Below, piece after piece: positions 868 to 33,387 of a stretch of 64,000 bases of DNA (position 1 is its first letter; the number at the start of each line of letters is the position of its first letter). Source of the DNA: Anaeropeptidivorans aminofermentans (lineage in GTDB: Bacteria > Bacillota > Clostridia > Lachnospirales > UBA5962); assembly GCF_940670685.1 (NCBI RefSeq), contig NZ_OW711693.1, positions 2,170,001 to 2,234,000 on the forward strand, given 5' to 3'. Below the pieces are notes generated by a model. That model had not been told where the DNA came from. It saw only the letters and a list, made by a program, of their open reading frames with translations, and made no database searches. Made by a program: the position numbers and the translations under genes.

Positions 868-3084
868 ATGACTAAAAAACCAACAAATGTGAATGCTGAT
901 GCCAATGTAATAAAACAAAATATCACTCACGTTCTTGAATCCAATTATATGCCCTATACCATGAGCGTCATCGTATCAAGGGCCATCCCTGAAATAGACG
1001 GTTTTAAGCCTGCCCATAGAAAGCTCCTTTATACCATGTATAAAATGGGGCTTTTAAAAGGCGGAAGAAGGAAGTCTGCAGATGTTGTGGGCCAAACCAT
1101 GCAATTAAATCCCCACGGAGATGCCAGCATATACGAAACCATGGTAAGGCTCACGAGGGGCTATGATGCTCTTCTCCATCCTTTTGTAGATTCCAAGGGC
1201 AATTTCGGTAAGGTATATTCAAGGGATATGGCCTATGCTGCAAGCAGGTATACGGAAGTAAAGCTTGCAGACATATGCAGTGAGATATTTTTTGATATTG
1301 ATAAAAATACAGTTGATTTTATAGATAATTATAACGGCACAATGAAGGAGCCGGTGCTTCTTCCCACAACATTTCCAAACCTTCTTGTTACCCCGAATCA
1401 GGGGATTGCCGTAGGGATGGCCAGCAGTATTGCAAGCTTTAATTTAAAAGAAGTATGCACGGCAACCATAGAATATATCAAAGATAAAAACACAGATTTA
1501 AAAAAGCATCTTTTAGGTCCTGATTTTTCAACCGGCGGCCAGCTGATCTATAACGAAGAAGAAATAGATAAAATATATAAAACAGGCCGGGGCGGTTTCA
1601 AGCTAAGGGCAAAATACAGATATGACAAGAAGAACTCCTGCATTGAAATATATGAAATACCCTACACAACCACGCAGGAAGCCATATGCGATAAAATTAT
1701 TACCCTCGTTAAATCCGGAAAAATAAAAGAAATTACGGAAGTCCGTGACGAAACCGATTTAAAGGGCCTAAAAATTGCCCTTGATATAAGAAAAAGTGCA
1801 GACCCTGATACCTTAATGCAAAAGCTTTTTGCAATGACTCCCCTTGTAGATACCTTTAGCTGTAATTTTAATATTCTTATTAACGGCAGGCCCAAAACCA
1901 TGGGAATAGCCGAAATCCTTGACGAATGGATTATTTTCAGAACAGAATGCATTCGGAAACAGCTAAACTATGATATCAAAAAAACCGAAGAAAAATTACA
2001 TCTTCTTGAGGGTCTTTCAAAAATACTTTTGGATATTGATAAGGCAATAAAAATCATCAGAAATACAGAGCAGGACAATATGGTAATTCCAAACTTAATG
2101 GAAGGCTTTCAAATTGACACTATCCAAGCGGAATATATAGCAGATATACGCCTTAGAAACTTAAATAAGGAATACCTTCTTAACCGAATAAAGGAAAAAG
2201 ATAATCTTGAAAACTTACTTGCAGACCTGAAAGCTACCATAGAAAGCGATAAAAAAATTCACAGCCTAATTTCCGCTTCTCTTAAAAACATTATAAAAAA
2301 ATATCAGCAGGATAGAAGAACTGAAATTATATACGAAGAAGAAATCGAAGAGATTTCAGAGGATATCTTTATAGAAGATTACGGCCTTAAACTGTTTTTA
2401 ACTGCAGAAGGCTATTTCAAAAAAATACCGCTTATTTCTTTAAGAAGCGCATCAGACCATAAATTCAAAGAAGACGATTATATGCTTACAGAGCTTGAAT
2501 CTACAAACAAGGCAGATATCCTGTTTTTTTCAAATCAAGGCTCTGTATATAAGGCAAAGGCCTATGACCTTCCCGATTGCAAGGCCTCTCTTCTGGGAGA
2601 GTATCTTCCGAACCTTCTTGATCTTTCTGAAGGGGAGAAAATAATATATATGACTGCCACTTTGGACTATTCGGGATATATGATTTTTGCTTTTGAAAAC
2701 GGAAAAATAGCCAAAATAAAAATGGATTCCTATCAGACAAAGGTCAACAGGAAAAAGCTTTTGAACGCCTACTCCTTAAAATCGCGTCTTATATTTGCAG
2801 ATTATATATATGAAGACAGAGACTATATCGGCGTAAGAGATACAGATAAGGCCACATTGTTTTCAACTGCCCTTATCGAACCGAAACAGACAAAAAATTC
2901 ATCGGGCGTGCAGTTTTATAATCTCAAGAAAAACAGTGTTCTTTCAATATTAATGCCTTCGGAAAATTTCAAATCCGACGACATTGAATATTACAGAACC
3001 AATAAAATACCCTCAACAGGTCATTTTATTACAGAAAATGATAAAAGAGCAAATGATTTGGAAGCACAGATAAAGCTTTTTTAA
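868..3084 (+). CDS. parC: Type IIA DNA topoisomerase subunit A (ParC/GyrA-like)
   Basis: The 738-residue breakage-reunion subunit. GDASIYETMVRL near residues 84-95 and the active-site context AASRYTEVKL put the catalytic tyrosine at Y128. The following block with GTMKEPVLLPTTFPN is standard for the family. Coiled-coil residues (about 365-475) lead to a short C-terminal region of about 240 residues, with no obvious GyrA box. It is therefore more like ParC or the divergent clostridial GyrA paralogue than canonical gyrase A, which is usually longer than 800 residues. The start has GGAGG 7 bases upstream. Its partner subunit B is immediately upstream. The product cuts and rejoins DNA during decatenation. 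Confidence 0.9.
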   Translation: MTKKPTNVNADANVIKQNITHVLESNYMPYTMSVIVSRAIPEIDGFKPAHRKLLYTMYKMGLLKGGRRKSADVVGQTMQLNPHGDASIYETMVRLTRGYDALLHPFVDSKGNFGKVYSRDMAYAASRYTEVKLADICSEIFFDIDKNTVDFIDNYNGTMKEPVLLPTTFPNLLVTPNQGIAVGMASSIASFNLKEVCTATIEYIKDKNTDLKKHLLGPDFSTGGQLIYNEEEIDKIYKTGRGGFKLRAKYRYDKKNSCIEIYEIPYTTTQEAICDKIITLVKSGKIKEITEVRDETDLKGLKIALDIRKSADPDTLMQKLFAMTPLVDTFSCNFNILINGRPKTMGIAEILDEWIIFRTECIRKQLNYDIKKTEEKLHLLEGLSKILLDIDKAIKIIRNTEQDNMVIPNLMEGFQIDTIQAEYIADIRLRNLNKEYLLNRIKEKDNLENLLADLKATIESDKKIHSLISASLKNIIKKYQQDRRTEIIYEEEIEEISEDIFIEDYGLKLFLTAEGYFKKIPLISLRSASDHKFKEDDYMLTELESTNKADILFFSNQGSVYKAKAYDLPDCKASLLGEYLPNLLDLSEGEKIIYMTATLDYSGYMIFAFENGKIAKIKMDSYQTKVNRKKLLNAYSLKSRLIFADYIYEDRDYIGVRDTDKATLFSTALIEPKQTKNSSGVQFYNLKKNSVLSILMPSENFKSDDIEYYRTNKIPSTGHFITENDKRANDLEAQIKLF

Positions 3085-15225: not shown

Positions 15226-15271
15226 TTGACATTAGAATCATATATGATAATATTATCATATATGATTCTAA
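15226..15271 (+). promoter_or_regulatory. Promoter overlapped by a perfect 40-bp palindromic operator
   Basis: A -35 TTGACA (15226-15231) is followed after 16 bp by TAATAT. From 15232 to 15271 the sequence is a perfect inverted repeat with no spacer; each half is 20 bases, starting TTAGAATCATATATGATA. It covers the spacer, -10 and start-site region. GGAGG follows at 15273. The layout is what an autorepressed HTH gene would show, with the dimeric repressor blocking RNA polymerase. Confidence 0.85.
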
Positions 15272-15286
15272 TGGAGGGACACAAAC

Positions 15287-15826
15287 ATGCAAAACAAGGC
15301 AGATGTGATACTTAATCCCATAAGGCTACGTATTATCCAGTATGTAGCACACAATATGCCTGTGACTGTTGCTCAAATAGCAAGGGCTATATCGGATATT
15401 TCAAAAGCGACGTTATACAGGCATGTACGAATTTTAGTGGATAATGAAATTCTAATTGTTATTGGACAGAAAAAAATACGCGGTACGCTCGAACAAAGCT
15501 ATTCTCTTAATCTACAAAAAATCAATTCAGCCGGACAAGAAAGTACCGCAGAAACACAAGCACTTGTTTATTCTATTCTGGGAAAACTCATAGAGGATTT
15601 TGGACAATATTTTAGCACAGATACCGCAAATCCAGTTGAAGATAGGTTGTTCGTGGGAACAAATACATTGTATTTGAATAATGGCAGCTTTGATGATTTT
15701 GTTCAGGATATTTATGCAGTTGTAGAAAAATACAGTCAATTACCTGCAGACAAAAACGGAAAAGCGCGAATGGTTACATTTGTGTCGTCCCCGGCATCTG
15801 CGGAAAACGATATGGCGAGGGAGTAG
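15287..15826 (+). CDS. ArsR-like winged-helix transcriptional regulator
   Basis: 179 residues. The N-terminal winged helix (about 5-75) reads VILNPIRLRIIQYV, then VTVAQIARAISDISKATLYRHVRILVDNEIL, typical of ArsR/YdfH-type DNA-binding domains. The C-terminal half has no recognised ligand domain. GGAGGG lies 9 bases before the ATG. The gene sits directly behind a perfect 40-bp palindrome inside its promoter, so it probably represses itself and the membrane protein gene 5 bp downstream. No metal-binding cysteine motif of classical ArsR is seen. The inducing signal is unknown. Confidence 0.82.
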   Translation: MQNKADVILNPIRLRIIQYVAHNMPVTVAQIARAISDISKATLYRHVRILVDNEILIVIGQKKIRGTLEQSYSLNLQKINSAGQESTAETQALVYSILGKLIEDFGQYFSTDTANPVEDRLFVGTNTLYLNNGSFDDFVQDIYAVVEKYSQLPADKNGKARMVTFVSSPASAENDMARE

Positions 15827-15831
15827 TTTTT

Positions 15832-16344
15832 ATGGTTAGAAATGTACGAAAGTGGATTAGCTTAATAGCGGCAGTAGTATTATATTATGTCATTCACGAA
15901 GGAGCACATTTGATTTTCGCATTATTGTTTGGTACGTTCAAAAAAATACAGTTTGTTTATTGGGGTATAGGCATTCAAATTGTAGTAGATGCAGCAGTTA
16001 TGTCGGATATGCAGTTATTTGTGTTCGGCATTGCCGGAGTGGCCGCTACCTTAATTGCAGGCTATATTTTTGTATGGAAAAGAAACAGTATTCTTAAGTC
16101 TACAAGCAAGGTAGTTAGGGCGGTTGCTTATTATTCTACCTTGATTTTCCTTTGCCTTGACCCGTTTTATCTTTCAATACTCTATCGTTTTGTGGGAGGC
16201 GGTGATATGAATTCGATTATACTTATAGGTATTCCCAAAATAGCTGCAACGATATTTTTCATAATTCTATTAGCCGCTAATTTAATCATCTTCATAAGAA
16301 TAATTTCCCCTGCTTATAAGAAAAGATTTACAGAAGACCAATAA
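15832..16344 (+). CDS. Small membrane protein with HExxH motif (M50-like), partner of the HTH regulator
   Basis: 170 residues, four to five predicted membrane helices. The first helix carries VIHEGAHLIFAL (H22-E23-x-x-H26), the zinc-protease motif placed within a membrane segment as in site-2 (M50) proteases. The usual distal Asp motif (LDG or NxxPxxPLDG) is not clear; NLIIF near the end does not match. It could be a minimal M50-like protease or a non-catalytic relative. It starts 5 bp after the regulator stop with GAGGGAG, so the two form an operon. A release protease paired with a repressor suggests a membrane-signalled switch (inference). Confidence 0.72.
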   Translation: MVRNVRKWISLIAAVVLYYVIHEGAHLIFALLFGTFKKIQFVYWGIGIQIVVDAAVMSDMQLFVFGIAGVAATLIAGYIFVWKRNSILKSTSKVVRAVAYYSTLIFLCLDPFYLSILYRFVGGGDMNSIILIGIPKIAATIFFIILLAANLIIFIRIISPAYKKRFTEDQ

Positions 16345-16350
16345 CAATGT

Positions 16351-16391
16351 AGCCATATAAGGCAATGCTTAATGCCTTGTCTTATATGGCT
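16351..16391 (+). terminator. Hairpin after the HTH/HExxH operon
   Basis: AGCCATATAAG/CTTATATGGCT outer stem with inner GGCA/TGCC. It starts 7 bp after the stop. There is no long T-run, so it may act with host factors or as an mRNA end stabiliser. Confidence 0.65.
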
Positions 16392-18531: not shown

Positions 18532-19119
18532 ATGGTTAATATTAATAAATCTGGCAATACATATTCTAATTTAATTCATAATAAGGCTTCTGATTTATAT
18601 TCAGACAGAGAAAAAAGCTTTGAAGAAAAGAGAAAAGAGCTTTCAGAAAAGGATCATAAAAATATATATTTAGAAAATATGGATAAATATATGAAAAGCA
18701 AAGAGGCGGAAGAGGCTCTTTCTAAAGAAATAAAGGCTTCAAAAAGAAAGAATATTGAAACCATGATAAAGACATTCCAAATGCTTCCGCTTAGAAATTA
18801 TACACAAGATAGCTGGAAAAGAGCCATGACTGATGTTGAAAGAGCTGTCTCTATTTATAAATCAAAAAACGCCACTCATTCTCAGCTTAATAAGGCATTG
18901 GGCCATTTAATAACGGCCATGTCAAAGCTTAAGCCGGCCCAAAAAGAAGAGGCAAAAGGAAACCCTGCCGACAGTATGAAAGCGATGCATGAAATGAATA
19001 AGGATTTATTTGAGAAGAATACTTTAAAAAATAATGTTGAGGTACCAATCCCTGCCCCTTCTCTTCCTGATGATACTGCTCCGCCCGTTATAGACGATAT
19101 TTCTGGAAATATCTTTTAA
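18532..19119 (+). CDS. Hypothetical protein with FIVAR-like helical module
   Basis: 195 residues, no signal peptide or membrane segment. The N-terminal third is highly charged (many Lys/Glu, likely coiled coil). Residues about 90-135 (YTQDSWKRAMTDVERAVSIY, then NATHSQLNKALGHLITAMSKL) resemble the FIVAR three-helix module otherwise found in secreted Gram-positive surface proteins. The C terminus is Pro- and Asp-rich (PIPAPSLPDDTAPPVIDD). GGGGGTG lies 9 bases before the ATG. It is upstream of, but separated by a promoter from, nadD-yqeK. Function unknown; the FIVAR match is by eye. Confidence 0.65.
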   Translation: MVNINKSGNTYSNLIHNKASDLYSDREKSFEEKRKELSEKDHKNIYLENMDKYMKSKEAEEALSKEIKASKRKNIETMIKTFQMLPLRNYTQDSWKRAMTDVERAVSIYKSKNATHSQLNKALGHLITAMSKLKPAQKEEAKGNPADSMKAMHEMNKDLFEKNTLKNNVEVPIPAPSLPDDTAPPVIDDISGNIF

Positions 19120-31026: not shown

Positions 31027-31593
31027 ATGAAAAAAGCTCTAATAATAGTAGATTATCAATACGATTTCGTAGCAGAGGACGGAAAGCTTTCAGCCGGAGA
31101 GGCAGCGAGAAATATTGAACACCATCTGGTAAAGCTAATTGAGGATTTTAATTCTGACGGTAACTACAGCGGTGTCATATTTACTTATGATAGCCATAAC
31201 ATAAAGGACTTTACTGAAAATTCCCACCCGGAAGGTAAAGTATTCCCTCCCCATTGCATATACGGTGAAAAGGGCTATGGGTATTATGGAAAGCTTAAAA
31301 ATTATGAAGAAAAGCCTGATTCCAACATCCTTTTGCTAAGCAAAAGAGGATACAGCCTGAACAGTGATATTATTTCCCAATTAGTAGATAAATATAACGA
31401 CTTCACTTTTGCGGGAGTAGTTACAGATATATGCGTATTCCAAAACGTTATTGCCTTTTATAATTGTGCCTGCAATAAAGATAAGCCTATAAAAATAACC
31501 GTCGACACAAAAGGCTGTGCTTCTTTTAATCCTGAAAGGGAGCAGGAATGCCTTAAATATATGAAAGAGGTTCTGGGAGTAGAAATATTATAA
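31027..31593 (+). CDS. Isochorismatase-fold hydrolase, nicotinamidase (PncA)-like
   Basis: 188 residues. The catalytic triad is D9 (IIVDYQYDF), K106 and C136 (GVVTDICVFQN). A nicotinamidase-type metal site is suggested by D55 and H57 (TYDSHN) and H76 (PPHC). Nicotinamidases convert nicotinamide to nicotinate, which would feed the NadD encoded 12 kb away. The residues favour this over isochorismatase itself, but the substrate is not proven. AGGAGG lies 9 bases before the ATG. A perfect terminator follows at once. Confidence 0.85.
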   Translation: MKKALIIVDYQYDFVAEDGKLSAGEAARNIEHHLVKLIEDFNSDGNYSGVIFTYDSHNIKDFTENSHPEGKVFPPHCIYGEKGYGYYGKLKNYEEKPDSNILLLSKRGYSLNSDIISQLVDKYNDFTFAGVVTDICVFQNVIAFYNCACNKDKPIKITVDTKGCASFNPEREQECLKYMKEVLGVEIL

Positions 31594-31621
31594 TAGTTAG
31601 TAGCTTCCAATTATCCAAAAT

Positions 31622-31655
31622 AAAAACCCGTATTGAAATTTCAATACGGGTTTTT
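31622..31655. terminator. Terminator of the nicotinamidase-like gene
   Basis: AAAAACCCGTATTGAAA/TTTCAATACGGGTTTTT, a perfect inverted repeat ending in a T-run. Confidence 0.93.
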
Positions 31656-31706
31656 ATTTTATAAGGCAATGGGCACCGCCCAATAATCCTTCACCTATTA
31701 CGCTTA

Positions 31707-31998: not shown

Positions 31999-33387
31999 TT
32001 ATTTTGCCATATTTACTGCAAGTCTTTTCTTCCAGCCGCCTTTTTTCATTCTTAAAGTAAAGAAAAGACCCCTGATTACCCAATCGGAATACATTGCTAC
32101 CCATACGCCATAAACGCCAAAGCCCATCGTAACCCCAAGAATATATCCAAGAACAATTCTTACAATCCACATACTTGCGATGGCAATTATCATGGTATAT
32201 TTTACGTCTCCTGTTGCCCTCAAGGCAGCAGGAGTTACAAATGAAGACGTCCAAAAAATCGGCGTTGCAATAAAGCCTGATTTTAAGATTCCATTGATAA
32301 GCCTTGCAGAAACATCACTTGCATTATATGCTCTTCCTATAAGCCCTGTCATGGGGAAAAGCACAATACTTATAATAAGGAACATTATCGCCCCTGCTTT
32401 TACTGCAAAAAAAGTAGTTTTTTCAACGTCCTCTTCTTCCCCGCGGCCTATTTTCTGGCCTACGAGAATCATAACCCCTGTGCTTAAGGCGTTTCCTGGA
32501 ACGTTTACAAATCCGAAAATATTAGAGCTTACGGAATTGGCAAACATAGCCGCCGTACCCATTCCTACTATATAAAGCTGGGTAATAAGCCTTCCTACTT
32601 GAAAAAGACTGGATTCTACACTTGTAGGTATGCCTATGCCCAGAACATTTTTCTGGGTAGCAAAATTGATTTTAAAGTATTTAAGCTTATTAAGCCGTAT
32701 GTTTTTTTCCAAGAATATAATATGTATTACAGATAAAATCATGCCCACAAGCCTTGCTAAAAGCAATGCCCATGCGGCCCCTTCTATTCCAAAGCCGCCG
32801 CTTTCTATATTAAGCCAATTAAAAATATTTACCTTCCATGGGAATATAAGCAAATATCCTAAAATAACATTAAAAACATTCATTATAATAGTAATAAGCA
32901 TAGGCGTAGCCGTATTTCCGCTTCCTCTTGCGACCCCAAATATAGTCTGGGTTATAGCAAGAACAGGAAAAGAAAACATGATTATGGTAAAATAGGAAAA
33001 TCCTGAATCGTATACCAGCTTTTCTGTTCCGTCAAAAAGAAAATTCATCATGCCCACCTTAAAGACATAAAAAAACACCATAACAAAAAAAGACAATATT
33101 ACGGCAAGTACCAACGCTTGAGAGCCTGCCTCCTTTGCCTCCTCCATATTCTTTCTTCCTATGTACTGGGCGACTATAATTGTTCCCCCTGTTGTAAGTG
33201 CAGCAAAAACAGAAATCATGATATTGCTAACACTGTCTATTATGCCTACTGCTGACACTGCATGCTCTCCAATGGCATTTGCTACCATCAACTGATTCAC
33301 AAGGCCCATTATAGTAATAAAAACCTGCTCCATTATAATCGGAGATGAGATCGTAAGCAGCTCTCTCAGCCTTTTTTTTGATTCCAT
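31999..33387 (-). CDS. MATE family efflux transporter
   Basis: 462 residues with about 12 membrane helices in two homologous halves. Starts SKKRLRELLTISSPIIMEQV. PNN-like segments and GTIIVAQYIGRKN and GVMILVGQKIGRGE mark the two halves, typical of Na+/H+-coupled multidrug exporters (NorM/DinF group). The substrate is not predictable. AGGGGG precedes the ATG. A hairpin in the leader and a good promoter lie upstream. Confidence 0.93.
   Translation of the reverse strand: MESKKRLRELLTISSPIIMEQVFITIMGLVNQLMVANAIGEHAVSAVGIIDSVSNIMISVFAALTTGGTIIVAQYIGRKNMEEAKEAGSQALVLAVILSFFVMVFFYVFKVGMMNFLFDGTEKLVYDSGFSYFTIIMFSFPVLAITQTIFGVARGSGNTATPMLITIIMNVFNVILGYLLIFPWKVNIFNWLNIESGGFGIEGAAWALLLARLVGMILSVIHIIFLEKNIRLNKLKYFKINFATQKNVLGIGIPTSVESSLFQVGRLITQLYIVGMGTAAMFANSVSSNIFGFVNVPGNALSTGVMILVGQKIGRGEEEDVEKTTFFAVKAGAIMFLIISIVLFPMTGLIGRAYNASDVSARLINGILKSGFIATPIFWTSSFVTPAALRATGDVKYTMIIAIASMWIVRIVLGYILGVTMGFGVYGVWVAMYSDWVIRGLFFTLRMKKGGWKKRLAVNMAK

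Follow-up and report, generated by a model that had tools for sequence, protein, structure and literature searches.

Introduction

Several described systems place a transcriptional repressor beside a protein with an HExxH motif. In BlaR1/BlaI and MecR1/MecI, the repressor and a membrane HExxH protein are encoded in one operon, and in ICEBs1 the repressor ImmR, of the Cro/cI type, is paired with the soluble HExxH protease ImmA. Another described repressor, LugJ from the lugdunin gene cluster of Staphylococcus lugdunensis, is a dimeric winged-helix protein that has been modelled on structure 4g6q. LugJ binds the palindrome CATTATCATTATCAATAATGATAATG as a dimer in EMSA, with a second shifted band at higher protein, and is released from DNA by a small molecule, lugdunin (PMC11980582). 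Among membrane proteases, the closest described groups for comparison are the S2P family M50 (SpoIVFB, RseP, mjS2P) and the DUF3267 (PF11667) proteases, represented by TmcP, which has four helices without gate helices, an HExxH motif and a distal Asp (PMC13252029).

The locus considered here lies in a 64,000-nt stretch of the Anaeropeptidivorans aminofermentans genome (contig NZ_OW711693.1; hereafter the window, whose own numbering is used throughout) and consists of a regulator gene, H, followed by a gene for a membrane protein, M. The pair resembles BlaR1/BlaI and MecR1/MecI in joining a repressor and a membrane HExxH protein within one operon, and ImmR/ImmA in coupling a repressor with an HExxH protein. 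However, H is not a member of the BlaI family, and M is predicted to be S2P-like rather than M56 and lacks a penicillin-sensor domain. In line with the initial annotation, which had set the pair apart from BlaR/BlaI, neither protein has a BlaI-type or M56 Pfam match. Likewise, in place of a Cro/cI-type repressor and a soluble protease, the locus has an HTH_20 regulator and a predicted four-helix membrane protein. We reached LugJ by a literature search with the operator sequence derived below; a description of the H–M pair or of the M family was not found in the literature. LugJ and H have in common a long palindrome between the −35 element and the ribosome-binding site and a membrane-related operon under apparent control; the LugJ half-sites, TTATCA/TGATAA, are approximated in the window by two copies with 10/12 matches each. 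The template used to model LugJ is also the nearest solved relative of H, which links the two indirectly. They differ in gene arrangement: the LugJ gene is divergent from its target operon of exporters and immunity genes, whereas H is co-directional with M.

Operon layout and the regulator

H (15287–15826, forward strand) encodes a winged-helix regulator of 179 aa, of the HTH_20/ArsR-like kind. Five nucleotides downstream on the same strand follows M (15832–16344), a membrane protein of 170 aa with HEGAH at residues 22–26 (15895–15909), inside a predicted helix spanning residues 3–33. The initial description of the pair, a winged-helix regulator plus a membrane protein whose first helix carries HEGAH, stands. 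Both genes are single-copy in their genome. Directly 3′ of M there is a strong stem-loop with a weak T-run (16351–16391, forward strand; inverted repeat of 18 nt, 89%; RNA fold −25 kcal/mol, z −4.8), a probable end-of-operon hairpin.

H is a regulator of a known kind. It matches PF12840 (HTH_20) with 46.3 bits, above the cut-off of 27, and among solved structures 4g6q is closest to it (E 2.4e-20). The structural model of H (pLDDT 82) aligns with 4g6q at Z 12.4, also matches ArsR proteins and contains no membrane-spanning helix. In PADLOC, H matches Csa3/CARF-type regulators only, and does so at the HTH part. The match to PRK06474 (NF005061) extends over nearly the full length, with H residues 1–169 aligned to positions 1–176 of the 178-position model, and scores 98.9 bits, under the curated cut-off of 121. 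H shares with PRK06474/NF005061 regulators the full-length layout, the operator style and the arrangement of one regulator with one cargo in an operon. It differs from them in its sub-threshold score, in its placement in a separate clade of the H tree, apart from most regulators with the canonical operator motif, and in its S2P-like cargo, the partners of PRK06474/NF005061 being an alpha/beta hydrolase, a phosphatidylserine decarboxylase or an Rce1-like protein.

A similar spread of partners is seen among H homologues at large. Alpha/beta hydrolase genes predominate directly downstream. The 14 phosphatidylserine decarboxylases come next, and further partners are Rce1-like proteins (12, in two sets), amino-acid permeases, ABC ATPases and one YhfC. 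Since relatives of H precede such unrelated enzymes and transporters, a regulator of this class needs no HExxH partner. Intramembrane-protease-like genes with unrelated folds are often found after H-family regulators (L082, L056, L080, L081, L084, L054 and others): Rce1-like (12), YhfC (1) and, in L060, L078 and L092, an unassigned gene for a 234-aa membrane protein with a GPLEEGVR motif. The phosphatidylserine decarboxylase gene directly follows the H-family gene in L124–L127, L132–L135, L138, L140–L143 and L148.

A predicted operator shared by H homologues

The initial annotation reported a perfect, spacerless palindrome of 40 bp at 15232–15271. Perfection and lack of a spacer were confirmed, but the extent was underestimated by two bases at each end: the element is a 44-bp palindrome at 15230–15273, with zero spacer and arms at 15230–15251 and 15252–15273 (CATTAGAATCATATATGATAAT and ATTATCATATATGATTCTAATG). 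Perfect palindromes with 22-nt arms are expected 1.6e-8 times per window from base composition and 3.5e-7 times given the local A+T content. Two palindromes of 44 bp are the longest perfect ones in the window, the next being 16 bp. The other one (31617–31660) has an A-rich arm, a CCCG stem and a T-rich arm, resembles a bidirectional terminator, and lies directly 3′ of an isochorismatase-like ORF (31027–31593), with a convergent MATE-type transporter-like ORF beyond it (31999–33387, minus strand). Elsewhere in the window, a 22-bp tandem repeat of 2.5 copies (18600–18651) lies within ORF 18532–19119.

As the initial annotation had noted, the palindrome covers the promoter from −35 to the ribosome-binding site. 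It starts within the TTGACA of the predicted −35 element (15226–15231), spans the −10 element and ends at GGAGGG (15273–15278, forward strand), its last base being the first G of this ribosome-binding site, which was read from the sequence and serves the ATG at 15287. The predicted promoter (15226–15254, forward strand; 10/12 matches in a consensus scan) includes an extended −10, with TG before TAATAT or AATATT, 16–17 nt downstream of TTGACA; such a scan match is not evidence of function by itself. The palindrome can be read as two abutting copies of a predicted operator, GAATCA-TATA-TGATAA (15235–15250) and TTATCA-TATA-TGATTC (15253–15268), 18 bp apart and each with 10/12 matches to TTATCA-N4-TGATAA. 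Elsewhere in the genome, the pattern ATCATATATGAT-N6-ATCATATATGAT was not found with up to three mismatches. The double element thus occurs once, which points to a local rather than a global regulator.

The motif TTATCA-N4-TGATAA was first noticed over the −10/+1 region upstream of an initial group of H homologues, taken from further genomes in the phylum, and was then tested on two sets fetched later. It was perfect in 16 of the 28 upstream regions of the first later set and in 22/53 of the second, where 44/53 had it with at most one mismatch. Overall, the perfect motif is present in 45 of 98 upstream regions of H homologues, compared with none in 388 kb of control sequence. It stands upstream of an H homologue in 23 of the first 45 loci, while the rest of the same loci (155 kb) and the loci with M but without H (233 kb) contain none. 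Two copies at the 18-bp spacing seen in the window recur in L063, L083 and L099. The promoters of the phosphatidylserine decarboxylase loci listed above carry the perfect or the one-mismatch form in nearly all cases. Of 100 stretches upstream of H homologues, 20 contain the 22-bp LugJ operator core without a mismatch, and 226 kb of controls hold no site at up to two mismatches. This recurrence supports the proposal that the palindrome is the operator of H, at the level of a prediction.

The operator in the window is nevertheless non-canonical. Each copy matches the motif at 10/12 positions, and a best single match of this quality arises in 3.5% of shuffles. The window operator differs from the LugJ core by 8 mismatches, and the exact core is not present. 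Within the clade of H, the canonical motif is absent from L028, L049–L051, L076 and L094. That the window operator lacks the LugJ core and that H falls in a different clade together form the main caveat on the operator reading. An outer inverted repeat of 38–40 bp is clear in the window and in L049, weak in L028 and L094 and absent in the rest of the clade, which is only suggestive of a clade feature. The promoter of L002 has GAATCA...ATATTATCA-N4-TGA in the corresponding place, with a half-site at about the same distance from the start codon. Because the half-sites are there in place without full symmetry, perfect symmetry is particular to the lineage of the window. In another clade member, L051, about ten tandem copies of GTGGGATAA make up the promoter region upstream of the regulator (1492–2001, minus strand).

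M is predicted to be a compact S2P-like protein

The sequence of M has no match in Pfam or NCBIfam, including none to PF02163, PF11667 or PF13398 at E up to 1, and searches against solved structures returned chance matches only. Thirty-five homologues from Clostridia and Bacteroidales give best weak matches to PF02163 (Peptidase_M50, 0.0027), PF11667 (DUF3267, 5.4e-4) and PF13398 (M50B, 9.9e-4). The homologues have three invariant elements, HEGxH (residues 22–26), DPxY (DP at 110–111) and FVGGGD-N (120–127), and R6 and G47 are also common to them. No homologue without HExxH was found among the 35 aligned, so the initial annotation's suggestion of an M50-like site was not refuted by the sequences and gains from the structural comparison as well.

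The AF2 model of M (pLDDT 95) comprises a helix at 3–33, a hairpin at 36–52, helices at 59–82 and 93–117, a short helix at 124–130 after GGGD and a helix at 136–169. Its top eight structural matches in VIA-align are all S2Ps, with Z of 7.0–8.7 (RseP 8.7 and 8.5, SpoIVFB 8.4, mjS2P 7.3), in a range where chance helix arrangements also occur. Foldseek placed S2Ps at ranks 1, 2 and 4, with weak E-values of 0.02–0.06. A profile alignment joined the TM1–hairpin–TM2 part with SpoIVFB-like M50s of relatives (E 0.0014), ending before D125 (16204–16206). This invariant residue falls in the right place according to the aligned ranges of SpoIVFB (24–150) and mjS2P (33–175), consistent with a putative role as third metal ligand. 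M thus displays, in its model, features of the S2P clan (MEROPS MM, M50-like), namely HExxH within a transmembrane helix and the three-helix core fold, and has the core topology and putative metal-site residues of family M50 in the same order. It differs from M50 members in having no PDZ, CBS or extra helices and in remaining under the Pfam cut-off. The best reading of M is therefore a compact S2P-like membrane protein for which peptidase activity is predicted.

M is also similar to the DUF3267 proteases, which have four helices, HExxH, a distal invariant Asp, no TM5/TM6 gate helices and S2Ps as best fold match. However, M itself does not match PF11667 and only 10 of its 35 homologues do so, weakly; unlike with TmcP, neither a RiPP precursor nor an escort gene was seen adjoining M. 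Two other settings for M were considered and rejected. As a defence system it has no PADLOC match, and as part of a mobile element or phage it has no plasmid match and no confirmed relative in viral contigs. One M homologue (47% identity) is encoded at MT837126.1:8552–8941, in a 12-kb human faecal record labelled 'Bacteriophage sp.', which is possibly bacterial DNA filed as phage.

Distribution of the pair and alternative readings

The H–M pair is real and kept in three lineages, as a minority arrangement. H adjoins M in 3 of 41 M loci, represented by the window (with the near-identical L001), L002 and L028 (Clostridium asparagiforme), and in all three lineages the genes overlap or are at most 5 nt apart. 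In a sample of 398 genomes across the phylum, H was found in 15 and M in 11, with both only in the genome of the window; the order sample had M in 4 of 295 genomes. In none of the further genomes with M from these two samples did H adjoin it. The initial annotation had proposed co-occurrence of the two genes as a check, and by that measure they are mostly apart, an outcome that tells largely against the switch discussed below. A general rule linking M to a regulator was rejected as well, because its neighbours in other loci, MarR (L003), XRE (L006 and L044) and GntR (L070), share no type. The genes ahead of M in L003 (1864–3519; Hungatella sp. UBA5385) encode a MarR-type regulator and a Germane-domain lipoprotein-like product.

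This patchiness raises the question of whether the linkage has any functional meaning, M being a stand-alone S2P-like protease for housekeeping or peptide processing that was captured beside H by chance. The M tree lends itself to this reading: the M protein of the window has that of L002 as its sister (99/92), H is missing from L003 and L004, which come next in relatedness, and the C. asparagiforme protein is placed elsewhere, so that supported branches force two changes of the 'paired' label. The H tree argues the other way, since the three M-paired H proteins, despite differing by up to 63% in sequence, form one group (86/57) in which no other partner was found. Repeated chance origin of such tight spacing in all three lineages is also hard to accept. 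The trees do not decide between an old pair from which M was often freed and two separate joinings of H to M; both histories are compatible with them. On balance, we regard chance capture as unlikely.

A still less probable reading builds on the two-gene signalling switch of the initial annotation, a membrane-embedded metalloprotease controlling a repressor. M, as a signal-sensing intramembrane or membrane-bound protease, would cleave or otherwise remove H and so cause derepression, in the manner of a miniature BlaR/BlaI or ImmA/ImmR. Its attractions are a two-gene operon combining a repressor with a protein that has an intact S2P-like site, the retention of the pair with grouped H proteins noted above, and the precedent of SpoIVFB, an S2P that can cleave pro-sigmaK, which is a transcription factor associated with the membrane (complex 8vjl). 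Against it, M occurs without H in 38/41 loci, almost every genome that has H lacks M, the H model offers no membrane-spanning helix, and M has no extracytoplasmic sensor domain, all of its 170 aa being taken by the core. Moreover, it is a small molecule that releases LugJ, a repressor with the same operator type (PMC11980582). With the two families independent and LugJ released in this way, the switch is disfavoured and unsupported, and nothing was found to show M acting on H. A narrower form limited to loci where H and M travel together, in which the S2P-like protein would inactivate a cytoplasmic repressor upon a membrane signal, with neither a sensor domain nor an anti-sigma-type substrate, is if anything slightly more doubtful.

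Two further readings concern the palindrome alone. Its centre, TGATAATATTATCA, looks like a Fur box (7-1-7, TGATAAT-N-ATTATCA), with half-sites TGATAAT/ATTATCA at 15245–15258, and might be bound by a metal regulator of the Fur/PerR/Zur type. However, the spacer is 0 instead of 1, the symmetry extends equally over the outer 15 bp of both sides although a Fur box does not need it, and the motif goes with H homologues in different families and has no copy in the rest of their loci, which makes such a regulator very improbable. Equally little credence is due to an RNA or DNA hairpin (an attenuator, an mRNA 5′ stabiliser or a cruciform): the whole element as RNA folds at −26 kcal/mol (z −7.9), but related promoters keep the half-sites rather than full symmetry and, as the palindrome starts inside the −35 element, most of its left arm precedes the expected start site and would stay outside the transcript.

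Discussion

The reading that we favour, and consider probable, is that of an autoregulated, ligand-inducible operon in the style of LugJ and PRK06474, with a compact S2P-like membrane peptidase as its cargo. H would be a dimeric winged-helix repressor, two dimers of which could bind next to each other, one on each of the 16-bp operator copies within the palindrome. Bound in this way, H would cover the −10 element and the start site up to the ribosome-binding site, and H and M would be shut off together. A small effector, probably membrane-active or hydrophobic, may bind the C-terminal domain of H and free the repressor from its operator, in the way that lugdunin releases LugJ. M would then be made, with TM1 carrying HEGxH, the β hairpin, TM2, TM3, a re-entrant GGGD segment and TM4, and, like DUF3267 proteins, lacking the gate helices that larger S2Ps have. 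M would act as a peptidase on some membrane peptide or protein and would not be the sensor of H. What the sequence itself shows is the palindrome, the recurrence of the motif, the gene order, the invariant residues and the predicted fold, whereas repression by H, binding of two dimers, effector release and the peptidase activity and target of M are inferred.

The regulator side supplies a large and scarcely studied class of ArsR-like regulators, of which about 100 promoters were inspected, with a testable predicted operator, and ties this class to LugJ, whose effector is known. On the side of the cargo, M represents an uncatalogued family of very small, predicted S2P-like membrane proteins common to Clostridia and Bacteroidales. 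The same regulator class repeatedly appears to control membrane-related enzymes (Rce1-like, YhfC, phosphatidylserine decarboxylase and now S2P-like proteins), which hints that these regulators may respond to membrane-active compounds.
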